Part shown: positions 51,257 through 57,800 of the stretch, in pieces
Position numbering within the stretch: position 1 is the first letter of the stretch
Layout: every line of letters begins with the position of its first letter
Assembly: GCA_020072845.1 (NCBI GenBank)
Contig: JAIQGF010000009.1
Location: 186,001-250,000, forward strand
Direction of reading: 5' to 3'
DNA length: 64,000 nt
Origin: Terriglobia bacterium
GTDB lineage: Bacteria; Acidobacteriota; Terriglobia; Terriglobales; Acidobacteriaceae
Translations under genes and position numbers: made by a program
Notes under the pieces: model-generated
Seen by the model: only the letters and a program-made list of their open reading frames with translations
Database searches by the model: none
What the model was told of the DNA's origin: nothing

Positions 51257-51430
51257 TTTTAGCCACAGAGGGCACAGAGGAAGGACCGGCAGAAACATTG
51301 CCGATTGTCGATTGCAAGACCGGACCGCTGAAAAATCGGCAATCGACAATCTGCAATCAAAAATGATTTTGCTTTTTGCTTCCTCTGTGCCCTTTGTGGC
51401 TAAAATTGCCATTCGACAATCGGCAATCGT
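51257..51430. repeat. Nested phrase hairpins (CACAGAGG outer, GATTGTCGATTG inner)
   Basis: Outer arms 51257-51283 and 51379-51405 match at 26 of 27 positions (TTTTAGCCACAGAGGGCACAG...). Inside, CCGATTGTCGATTGC (51301-51315) pairs with ATCGGCAATCGACAATC (51335-51351). A third arm of the inner phrase lies just outside (51406-51430). Two different phrase types are nested. Confidence 0.85.
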
Positions 51431-51449
51431 TCAGGTACGCTCCGACGCC

Positions 51450-51929
51450 ATGAAACGCGTGCTCCTCGCTCTACTTGCACTCACCCTATTCGCCACCGCG
51501 CAAACCTCTGCGAAGCCGCAGCCGCAAGCAAAAGCTCCCGCCAAGCTGTCGGGGCAACAGCTTCTCCTGAAGGCCGACCGCGCCTTTGCCCGCGACACTG
51601 CGGTGAAACGCCTCGAAGGCTGGATGGCTTACATGGCAGACGACGCCGTGCTGTTCTCCGACAAGCCGGTGGTCGGCAAGGACGCCATCCGCGCCTTTTA
51701 CCAGTCTGCCTTCGCCAACCCGGACTTCGTCCTTTCCTGGCAGCCCACACGCGCTGAAATGTTTCGCTCCGGCGACACGGGGTACACCACGGGGCGTTAC
51801 GAATTGCACGCCAAAGACGGCAAGGGCAACAAGGTGGTGCGCCACGGCTCGTACCTGACGATCTGGAAAAAACAGTCGGACGGGAGCTGGAAGGTGATTG
51901 CCGACGGCGGCGCCCCGGACAAGCATTGA
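51450..51929 (+). CDS. Secreted SnoaL/DUF4440-like protein
   Basis: 159-residue exported protein with a signal peptide (MKRVLLALLALTLFATAQTS) and a Lys/Pro linker. A NTF2-like alpha+beta domain follows (about 36-150) with LLKADRAFARDTAVKRLEGWMAYMADDAVLFSDKPVVGKDAI, DFVLSWQPTRAEMFRSGDTGYTTGRYELHA and GSWKVIADGGAPD. This is typical of SnoaL/DUF4440 proteins, some of which are isomerases and many ligand-binding. The start ATG 51450 opens the signal peptide. No catalytic residue is obvious. Confidence 0.78.
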   Translation: MKRVLLALLALTLFATAQTSAKPQPQAKAPAKLSGQQLLLKADRAFARDTAVKRLEGWMAYMADDAVLFSDKPVVGKDAIRAFYQSAFANPDFVLSWQPTRAEMFRSGDTGYTTGRYELHAKDGKGNKVVRHGSYLTIWKKQSDGSWKVIADGGAPDKH

Positions 51930-52055: not shown

Positions 52056-53189
52056 ATGCAGGCGATTTTGGCCCTGGAAGATGGCAGGATCTTCAAGGGC
52101 AAAGGCTTCGGTGCGCAGGGCGAATGTTACGGCGAAGTCGTTTTTAATACTTCCATCACCGGCTACCAGGAAATTTTCACCGACCCCTCTTACGCCGGCC
52201 AGATCGTGGTGCTCACCAATCCCGAGATCGGCAACTACGGCACCAACGACGACGACAACGAGGCCACTCGCCCCTATATCGAGGGCCTGATCGTGCGCGA
52301 GTTCTCGCGCATCAGCTCCAACTGGCGCTCGCAGCAGGTTGCCGACGAATACTTGGAGCGCTACCGCATCCCGGTGCTGGCTGACATTGACACGCGCGCC
52401 CTGGTCCGCCACCTGCGCGACCATGGCGTCATGCGCGGCGTCATCTCCACCATCGAAACCGACGTGGACAAGCTGATCGCCAAGGCCCGCTCCATCCCCA
52501 AGATGGACGGCACCGACCTGGCGAAGGTGGTTTCCACCAAGCAGCGCTACATTTGGGACACTGGCGAGCGCTCCATCGAGCCCACCGAAGTTGTCGGGGT
52601 GAAGGACGCCGAGCCGCAGCACCACGTTGTCGCTTACGACTTCGGCATCAAGCACAATATCCTGCGCAAGCTGGTGAGCGGCTGCTGCCGCGTCACCGTC
52701 GTGCCCGCAGAAACCAACGCCGAAGACGTGTTGGCGCTCAAGCCCGACGGCGTCTTTCTCTCCAACGGCCCCGGCGATCCCGAGCCCTGCACCTACGCCC
52801 AGGAAAATATCCGGCGGCTGATGGGTCGTGTTCCGATATTTGGAATTTGTTTGGGTCACCAGTTGGTAGGACTCGCCCTCGGCGGCAAGACCTACAAGCT
52901 GAAGTTCGGCCACCACGGCGGGAATCATCCGGTGAAGCAGTTGCAGAGCGGCAAGGTGGAGATCACGGCGCACAACCACAACTTCGCCGTCGATCCAGAT
53001 TCGCTGCCTATGAGCGAAGTCGAGTTGACGCACATGGACCTGAACGACAACACGCTGGAGGGCCTGCGCCACCGCAACCTGCCGCTGTTCTCGGTGCAGT
53101 ACCACCCCGAAGCCTCGCCCGGCCCGCACGATTCGCACTACCTGTTCAACGATTTCGTGGCGATGATGGAGGAGTGGAAGGGACGCTAA
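52056..53189 (+). CDS. carA: Carbamoyl phosphate synthase small (glutaminase) subunit
   Basis: 377-residue glutaminase subunit that supplies ammonia to CarB for carbamoyl phosphate, precursor of arginine and pyrimidines. The N-terminal domain has the family start [15 protein letters not shown] and the [20 protein letters not shown] region. The class I glutaminase part contains [32 protein letters not shown] with the nucleophilic Cys, and [17 protein letters not shown] with the His/Glu pair. The start has GGAGAG upstream. The next ATG follows its TAA with no gap, and its end supplies GGAAGGGA as a ribosome-binding site for that gene. Confidence 0.96.
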
Positions 53190-54506
53190 ATGGGGTCGTA
53201 TTCCGAGTTTCGGATCGCGTGTTATAACCTGATCTCCAACAAGAGCGAGGTTGTTCCTGTACTCATGACTGTATTCCGGGAATCCGACAAGGTCGTCGTC
53301 CCGGAGCGCGAAGATGAAGTGGGCGACTTGGTTCCCGGTGAGTGTCGTTACGTGACATCGGCGAAAATCGCTAAGCAGCGACTCGACATAATGGGCTTCT
53401 CGCTCAGAAACACGCGACAGGACTTTGAAGCGGAGAAGTTGGACGCCATTGCTGCCCTCGAAGAGGAGGTCCTCGACTACCAAAAGTGGGAAACTGATTC
53501 CGGCGAGCGGCACCCAGACGACGCCGTACCTCAACTCGTCCAGCGCCCCCAAAAGCAGTTGGAGGTTCTGCATTCACTGGGTTTCGCTGATTTTGTATCT
53601 GCCTTTCAATACATAAAGAGCCGGCCTGAATTGCTTGCGCCAGTAGCGCGTGTGAAGATTCCACCTGACGCACCGGCAGCTGCCAGGTATGTGCTCACAA
53701 GCGAGGACGACGGGTTCATCTACAATTATCCGTGCAGTGACATCAGGTATCTCGTCCGTACGTTCCTGGAAGGCTGCGACGATGCTGAGCAAGTAGTTCA
53801 GGATATTTCCGAACTGGTCAGTGGCGGGTACTACGATGTCGCCGACCGAGTTGCCGACAATGCGGTTCAGGCCCTTCTCTCCGAGTTCCCCATAAGCGGC
53901 ACGATCATAGTGCTGACCGAGGGTTCAAGCGACAGTCAGGCACTCGAAAAAACCTTGCGCCTGCTGTATCCCCAGCTCGCTGATTACTACACGTTCATGG
54001 ATTTTTTCGGATCCAATGCACAAGGGAGTGCAGGTACTCTCGTGAACACAGTTAAGGCTTTCGTCGGTGCTCGCATTAGCAACCGCGTCGTCGCACTCTT
54101 CGACAACGATGCAGCCGCCGAAGATGCACTCCGAGGGCTTTCGAAGACCACCATGCCAGAAAACATTCGTGTGCTGCAGTATCCCGATATTGATCTCGGC
54201 GATAAGTACCCGACGATTGGACCCAGTGGTTCGATCACTCTGATGAACGTGAATGGGTCCGGATGCAGCCTTGAGTTGTACTTTGGCGCGGACGTTCTGA
54301 CGCAAGGAGGTGCGCTGGTGCCAGTTAGGTGGACTGCGTCGAAGGATGCCATTCGTAAGTACCAAGGTGAGATCGGCGACAAGCGCCGTCTGCAAGACCT
54401 CTATGCCGAAAAGCTGCGCCGTTGCGGCGATCCGGAGTATTTCGCGAATGCGGATTTCACTGCCATGAAAAAACTTCTCGAGCACCTGCTTGCTGTGTAC
54501 CAGTAA
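53190..54506 (+). CDS. HEPN/Toprim-associated protein inserted between carA and carB
   Basis: 438-residue protein unlike carAB. The start MGSYSEFRIACYNLISNKSEVVP resembles the N-terminal domain found in HEPN/Toprim proteins, which are linked to defence and conflict systems. A Toprim-like part (about 236-345) has the acidic turn VLTEGSSD with E244 and a DxD pair at D305 and D307 (ALFDND), as in OLD-type and topoisomerase-type nucleases. Base composition is lower in GC than the flanking genes. It uses the ribosome-binding site at the carA 3' end (GGAAGGGA, 53176-53183). Nuclease function is inferred. Confidence 0.7.
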   Translation: MGSYSEFRIACYNLISNKSEVVPVLMTVFRESDKVVVPEREDEVGDLVPGECRYVTSAKIAKQRLDIMGFSLRNTRQDFEAEKLDAIAALEEEVLDYQKWETDSGERHPDDAVPQLVQRPQKQLEVLHSLGFADFVSAFQYIKSRPELLAPVARVKIPPDAPAAARYVLTSEDDGFIYNYPCSDIRYLVRTFLEGCDDAEQVVQDISELVSGGYYDVADRVADNAVQALLSEFPISGTIIVLTEGSSDSQALEKTLRLLYPQLADYYTFMDFFGSNAQGSAGTLVNTVKAFVGARISNRVVALFDNDAAAEDALRGLSKTTMPENIRVLQYPDIDLGDKYPTIGPSGSITLMNVNGSGCSLELYFGADVLTQGGALVPVRWTASKDAIRKYQGEIGDKRRLQDLYAEKLRRCGDPEYFANADFTAMKKLLEHLLAVYQ

Positions 54507-54512
54507 TTTCAA

Positions 54513-57293
<2,781 letters not shown>

Positions 57294-57800
57294 ATGAAAT
57301 CCACCGGCGAAGTCATGGGCATCGCCGACAATTTCGGCGAGGCCTTCGCCAAGGCGCAGATCGCCGCCGGCAACCGCCTGCCCACGCACGGCGCGGTGTT
57401 CATCAGCGTTACCGATCGTGACAAGCCGCAGGCTGTGCCCATCGCCAGGCGGTTCGTGGATCTCGGATTCAAGTTGTTTGCCACCAGCGGCACCGCGCGG
57501 GTGCTGGAAGAAGCGAAGTTGACGGTGGAGCGCGTGTACAAAGTCAAGGAAGGGCGCCCCAACGTCGTGGACCTGATCAAGGGCGACCGCATCCAGCTCA
57601 TCATCAACACGCCGCATGGCGCCGAGCCCTGGTTCGACGAAAAATCCATTCGCCGCGCCGCCGTCACCCACCACGTCCAGACCATCACCACCCTGGCCGC
57701 CGCGCGCGCCGCCGCCGACGGCATCGCCGCCCTGCAACAGGGCCACACCAGCGTTCGCGCCCTCCAGGCCCTGCACGCGCAACGAGCGGCCGTGCGCTGA
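57294..57800 (+). CDS. Detached CarB C-terminal MGS-like allosteric domain
   Basis: 168-residue open frame beginning at the ATG directly after the TAG and continuing the carB frame. It contains KSTGEVMG, then the MGS-like fold ([74 protein letters not shown]). In whole CarB this domain binds allosteric effectors such as UMP and IMP. It could be made by reinitiation at the TAGATG junction, by readthrough of the TAG, or not at all. It ends with an Ala/Arg-rich helix. Confidence 0.85.

Follow-up and report, generated by a model that had tools for sequence, protein, structure and literature searches.

A HEPN/Toprim-family gene between carA and carB of an acidobacterium lies in a family-wide insertion hotspot with unrelated cargo

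The original paper on minimal mobile elements is reportedly that of Saunders and Snyder (2002), and Lawson et al. (1995) are said to have described a variable carA-carB region in Neisseria. A minimal mobile element is outlined as a region between conserved genes that cassettes enter by one route only, homologous recombination in the flanking sequence (PMC3898611, in part). An extra open reading frame (ORF) between carA and carB was described in Pseudomonas aeruginosa and in Xanthomonas citri, unrelated between both, and the X. citri ORF overlaps the carA end by one base and is co-transcribed (available text of PMC4619228). The HEPN/Toprim-NTD1 domain (PF18871) occurs fused to HEPN, Toprim or REase domains in predicted conflict proteins, and the accessible portion of PMC3710099 gives no tested activity for this subfamily. 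The Toprim domain of AriB, from the PARIS system, can act as a tRNase with an essential glutamate (excerpt of PMC12409363).

Here we analyzed a stretch of 64,000 nucleotides of a soil-type Terriglobia bacterium (the window), in which a gene of the PF18871 family lies between carA and carB. Like the HEPN/Toprim-NTD1 proteins, in so far as the accessible portion of PMC3710099 describes them, its product combines the N-terminal domain with a Toprim-like C-terminal half and has homologues on plasmids, but the gene sits inside an essential biosynthetic operon. With AriB and OLD-type Toprim nucleases, as presented in the excerpts of PMC12409363 and PMC10952713, it shares acidic Toprim residues expected to bind metal and a conflict setting, although the carAB insert comes without an ABC ATPase gene and without a PDB sequence match to these proteins. 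The carA-carB junction has in common with the Neisseria minimal mobile element, on the partial account of PMC3898611, that differing whole-gene cassettes lie between two conserved genes; it differs in that some inserts carry transposase-like (Y1_Tnp) or GIY-YIG genes and some carry copies of the carB head or carA tail. Whereas the available text of PMC4619228 reports one ORF per species in P. aeruginosa and X. citri, the cargo of the junction studied here changes quickly across a whole family and comprises conflict genes among others. HEPN/Toprim proteins, minimal mobile elements and extra carA-carB ORFs are thus known, and their combination is new. Among the open-licence PMC papers listed by a literature search, none dealt with a carA-carB cargo hotspot in Acidobacteria, and a family-wide, fast-changing carA-carB cargo site with conflict genes, partly with junction copies, is apparently new on the same search. 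Our preferred reading, to which we give a probability of roughly 70%, is that the insert is a horizontally acquired single gene for a predicted conflict nuclease, lodged in a carA-carB gene-swapping hotspot that resembles minimal mobile elements.

The initial annotation had described an accessory gene of lower GC fitted precisely between carA and carB with no gap after the carA stop, and this observation was confirmed. The ATG of the insert is the next base after the TAA of carA, carB begins 6 nt past the insert stop (Table 1), and the composition is foreign, with a GC content of 0.544 (GC3 0.620) compared with 0.610 (0.836) for carA and 0.634 (0.864) for carB. The ribosome-binding sequence said to lie within the carA end was recovered by our scan as a Shine-Dalgarno (SD)-like run upstream of the insert gene. 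The accompanying statement that the insert had left carB without an SD sequence fared unevenly, because the 20 nt upstream of carB indeed held no SD match in the window, but carB of the insert-free, same-genus genome G003 (gap of 36 nt) likewise had none. A 4-mer SD match preceded carB in 17 of the 36 junctions of up to 300 nt and in 25 of the 61 above that length, compared with 36% of shuffled sequences, and the insert was therefore rejected as the cause of an SD loss. No promoter-like site was found in the stretch by a scan limited to sigma-70-type consensus sites, the scanned stretch held no Rfam element, and no terminator-like site lies at the junction, the sole coding-strand one (52129-52141) being inside carA. 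As no promoter-like site was seen and the only coding-strand terminator-like site is inside carA, the insert is probably transcribed with carA, from the carA promoter.

Table 1 Features of the carAB region of the window.
Feature	Position	Strand	Evidence
carA, carbamoyl-phosphate synthase small subunit	52056..53189	+	PF00988 E 3.2e-52, PF00117 E 1.3e-55
carA 3' end, source of the SD-like run for the insert gene	within 52056..53189	+	SD scan
HEPN/Toprim-family insert gene of 438 aa with foreign composition (GC3 0.62)	53190..54506	+	ORF list, Pfam, composition, alignments
HEPN_Toprim_N domain, residues 1-223	53190..53858	+	PF18871 E 1.6e-12, 48.3 bits, cut-off 25
Toprim-type motif, residues 244-248 (E244, D248)	53919..53933	+	invariant in 16/16 aligned sequences
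Toprim-type motif D305-N306-D307	54102..54110	+	invariant in 16/16 aligned sequences
6-nt spacer, insert stop to carB start, no SD match	54507..54512	+	coordinates, SD scan
carB large subunit, first 926 residues, ends at in-frame TAG	54513..57293	+	NF003671 1476 bits, TIGR01369 1357 bits
Remainder of carB frame, 168 aa, MGS domain, ATG right after TAG	57294..57800	+	PF02142 E 1.2e-20

Profile searches assigned the insert protein to PF18871, above the curated Pfam cut-off of that family, and not to an unrelated housekeeping family; no other Pfam model matched at E up to 1, those for HEPN and Toprim included. The family part of the earlier call of a HEPN/Toprim-type accessory gene stands on this match, while a HEPN domain itself is not supported, and "HEPN/Toprim" in the name refers to the N-terminal domain. 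A HEPN nuclease as effector was rejected for the same lack of a Pfam match. Residues E244, D248, D305, N306 and D307 were invariant in 7 of 7 aligned sequences (the window's included, the others 23-32% identical) and in all 16 rows of a wider alignment, also including the window's. A conserved glutamate with DxD acidic motifs is expected of a Toprim nuclease, and the three residues proposed earlier as Toprim-like (E244, D305 and D307), joined by D248, provide this pattern. As Pfam gave no Toprim match, the C-terminal half is assigned to Toprim from these residues, from the annotation of relatives and from the published domain description. At E up to 1, PADLOC returned no family of catalogued anti-phage defence and NCBIfam no match; PDB searches gave no convincing match and none to AriB or OLD-type nucleases, and single-sequence structure prediction gave no usable fold (mean pLDDT 36).

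Homologues on plasmids were found by tblastn in 51 records, 12 of which cover at least 80% of the query, all below 60% identity, with hosts that include Streptomyces, Aeromonas, Sinorhizobium and Leptospira; 29 of 40 among the plasmid matches listed are annotated as "HEPN/Toprim-associated". Some of the 12 plasmid neighbourhoods inspected adjoin defence-type genes (ABC-three-component and Shedu; AbiEii; Fic) and others do not, and no constant partner gene was seen across them. The C-terminal half of an Escherichia coli plasmid homologue had a weak PHROG match to DNA primase (E 0.009), and the PHROGs gave nothing else useful. The phage collection yielded one unannotated partial match (42%), and pattern scans of genome contigs and viral contigs returned no useful relatives.

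Throughout the family, the carA-carB junction is a hotspot for insertions whose cargo is unrelated between genomes, a feature that the initial annotation had missed. Across 97 genomes of the same acidobacterial family the carA-carB gap ranged from -1 to 2729 nt (median 542), exceeding 300 nt in 61 and 500 nt in 54. Of 120 genomes in one sampling, 6 had no carB match, and others with carB at a contig end or with weak matches only were left out; 103 family genomes entered the junction table, and in 6 of them no carA was found upstream. In the same family, control junctions exceeded 500 nt in 0/30 (rpoB-rpoC), 0/29 (groES-groEL) and 4/29 (trpB-trpA) cases, and 300 nt in 1/30, 0/29 and 6/29, respectively. 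For the controls, proteins of the window genome served as tblastn queries against 45 genomes per junction, and the 30 loci with the best scores were kept, less one each for groES-groEL and trpB-trpA. Fisher tests of gaps above 500 nt against these three junctions gave 3e-9, 8e-9 and 9e-5, values that overstate certainty given the relatedness of the genomes and the choice of best-scoring loci as controls. In a second, named set the gap could be measured at 74 of 80 loci, and 56 junctions remained after removal of those identical to the first set (median 467.5 nt, 35 above 300 nt, 53 of at least 60 nt); at least 8 of the 56 belong to records whose name or low similarity places them outside the family. 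Beyond the family, 24 genomes were considered, 3 of them unmeasurable (G037, G044 and G050), and by hand from coordinates gaps above 300 nt were found in 0/11 genomes of the sister family and in 5/10 from other families of the class, so that carA-carB expansion is not confined to the window's family. One genome of another family of the class has a carA-carB gap of about 5.8 kb (G058:C10:30273-36065). A strictly carAB-only phenomenon was rejected, since trpB-trpA is also expanded at times; its longer junctions span 410-743 nt in 6/29 genomes (L210, L218, L227, L231, L237 and L238), and none of their ORFs was homologous to a carAB cargo ORF at E 1e-4.

Cargo at the junction is unrelated between genomes and includes transposase-like, GIY-YIG and restriction-modification genes. 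The 64 junctions that reach 200 nt or more contain, by mechanical counting, 87 ORFs with a length of 70 aa or above. Of these, 78 run in the direction of car, a proportion to which a search extended slightly into carA and carB may contribute by slightly favoring the car strand. Among the Pfam matches listed (25 of 33 families, E<=0.001) for the 77 co-oriented cargo ORFs other than the window's were Y1_Tnp (14), CarboxypepD_reg (13), GIY-YIG (6), XhoI endonuclease (2), N6_N4 methylase (2) and GNAT (2). With overlaps counted, the median distance from the end of the last co-oriented cargo ORF to carB was 7.5 nt, and in 36/58 cases this distance was no greater than 20 nt. Turnover is fast: four genomes of one genus display four states, namely HEPN/Toprim (window), GIY-YIG (G001), transposase-like plus GIY-YIG (G002) and no insert (G003), and of 18 pairs of genomes whose carA-carB proteins are 95% or more identical, one had gaps of equal length and two had gaps within 50 nt of each other. 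The junction has two of the defining features of a minimal mobile element, conserved genes on both sides (97 junctions) and different whole-gene cassettes between genomes. In two genera, XhoI-type restriction endonuclease and methylase genes lie between carA and carB (L078 in G219, L079 in G421); their proteins are 63-65% identical between the two genomes, compared with 73% for carA-carB.

Some relatives carry scars in the form of junction copies. Copies of the carB head or carA tail inside the insert (score of at least 15) were detected in 7 of 87 junctions with a gap of at least 60 nt, from the carB head in five (G001, G002, G027, G028 and G407) and from the carA tail in three (G015, G399 and G407), compared with maximum scores of 11 and 12 in antisense controls. 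In G407, two stretches of cargo lie between carA and carB, separated by a carB head that runs directly into a carA tail, which looks like a stacking of two junction cassettes. In the second set one weak copy of 14 nt was found in 1/53 junctions, and the same copy scan found neither kind in the window's own insert. Ahead of the GIY-YIG ORF of G002 (L117) and of G001 (L119), the first 29-30 nt of carB are repeated exactly, and this copy and the ORF together look like a small mobile unit. A word found beside both GIY-YIG inserts, TGTCATCCCGAG, also occurs once in the window at 2424-2435 on the minus strand. The last 113 nt of carA are 96% (G001), 95% (G002) and 79% (G003) identical to the window, and the first 150 nt of carB 95%, 95% and 91%; as flank identity is not lowered beside the insert for two of the three relatives, no clear foreign recombination tract is apparent.

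In the mechanism that we favor, a whole-gene cassette would have arrived horizontally at the carA-carB junction, by homologous recombination in the flanks or by precise insertion, at a site where unrelated genes may be swapped and sometimes stacked as in a minimal mobile element. The insert would be translated by ribosomes finishing carA, through the SD-like carA end, and carB by re-initiation across the 6 nt. The protein would remain silent until triggered, with the N-terminal HEPN/Toprim-associated domain presumably as its sensing or regulating part, whereupon the metal-dependent, Toprim-type C-terminal half could cleave DNA or RNA, probably in an anti-phage or anti-plasmid conflict. In favor of this reading are the PF18871 match, the invariant acidic residues, the plasmid homologues with some defence-type neighbours, the hotspot with its unrelated and mostly co-oriented cargo, the junction copies in relatives, the sister gene at the same junction in another genus and the absence of PF18871 from the three same-genus relatives. 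Against it speak the negative Pfam Toprim, PADLOC and PDB results, the flanks with no clear foreign tract, the window's insert free of junction copies, the single weak copy in the second set, the mechanical nature of the ORF counts, the expansion of trpB-trpA and the defensive appearance of only some of the 12 plasmid neighbourhoods. The earlier interpretation, a putative conflict nuclease that could be tied to pyrimidine status, is partly supported: because the site is a family-wide hotspot with unrelated cargo, the position of the insert says less about a specific tie between nuclease and pyrimidines, although the sister gene at the identical spot in a second genus would favor one. A rather unlikely extension is that the junction is a dedicated docking site, where cassettes, often of conflict genes, enter with a copy of the carB head (sometimes of the carA tail), keeping the operon intact and cargo translation in step with carbamoyl-phosphate synthase, hence tied to nucleotide demand.

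Alternatively, the insert could be no passing cassette but a long-standing part of the operon, passed on vertically and with a role linked to the supply of carbamoyl phosphate or pyrimidines, for instance as a sensor of nucleotide depletion caused by phage. A genome of another genus (G484) indeed carries a 44%-identical gene precisely between carA and carB, with its ATG and the carA stop sharing one base, and this gene and the insert are sisters (support 97/99 in a 16-row tree with long branches elsewhere), so that two genera hold sister genes in identical position, both starting at the carA stop. Yet the two carA sequences are 85% identical, far above the cargo, and PF18871 was found in just 5 of 398 family genomes (3 of 250 in a smaller family sample, 1 of 297 in one of the phylum), two of these five, the window genome and G484, having it between carA and carB. 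It is absent from the three same-genus relatives examined (G001, G002 and G003), so the insert gene, whose junction the initial annotation had proposed to compare, is not conserved in all relatives. In G545 and G606 the PF18871 gene has another location: their 3.4-kb loci matched neither carA nor carB, and visual inspection of the ORFs in longer stretches revealed neither of the two. A partial match in G444 has neither carA nor carB within 7.3 kb. Given this rarity, vertical descent from a family ancestor would require near-universal loss, and we consider it improbable.

Operon junctions in this family could also simply expand as genetic noise, leaving the insert as a decaying passenger; the 6/29 expanded trpB-trpA junctions and the many inserts made of transposase-like genes or short mechanical ORFs would fit. 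This explanation, which appears unlikely, does not sit well with a full-length ORF that has retained its invariant residues and fits tightly between carA and carB, nor with the co-orientation of 78/87 cargo ORFs with car. Foreign DNA could also have ended up in carAB through an error of assembly or binning, for which the 27-contig assembly (4.23 Mb) and a stop within carB where G001 and G002 read through might speak. Such an artefact is highly improbable nonetheless, as the insert gene lies within a contig of 384,923 nt, the sequence on either side aligns to genomes of the same genus and the same arrangement recurs in G484. If the preferred reading holds, this bacterial family exchanges genes at a junction within an essential metabolic operon, which takes up conflict and mobile genes and stays unbroken; this suggests a place outside defence islands to search for compact single-gene defence candidates, and it raises the question of whether a nuclease gene between carA and carB responds to pyrimidine and arginine supply.

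Two further differences were noted beside the insert. The in-frame TAG of carB (57291-57293) lies just ahead of the MGS domain and is followed directly by an ATG codon; it is either a sequencing error or a genuine split of carB with re-initiation. Upstream of carA, the segment 51256-51941, which includes a DUF4440/SnoaL-like ORF (51312-51929), is unaligned in G002 and aligned only partly in G001, both of the same genus, and is a further presence/absence difference beside carAB.
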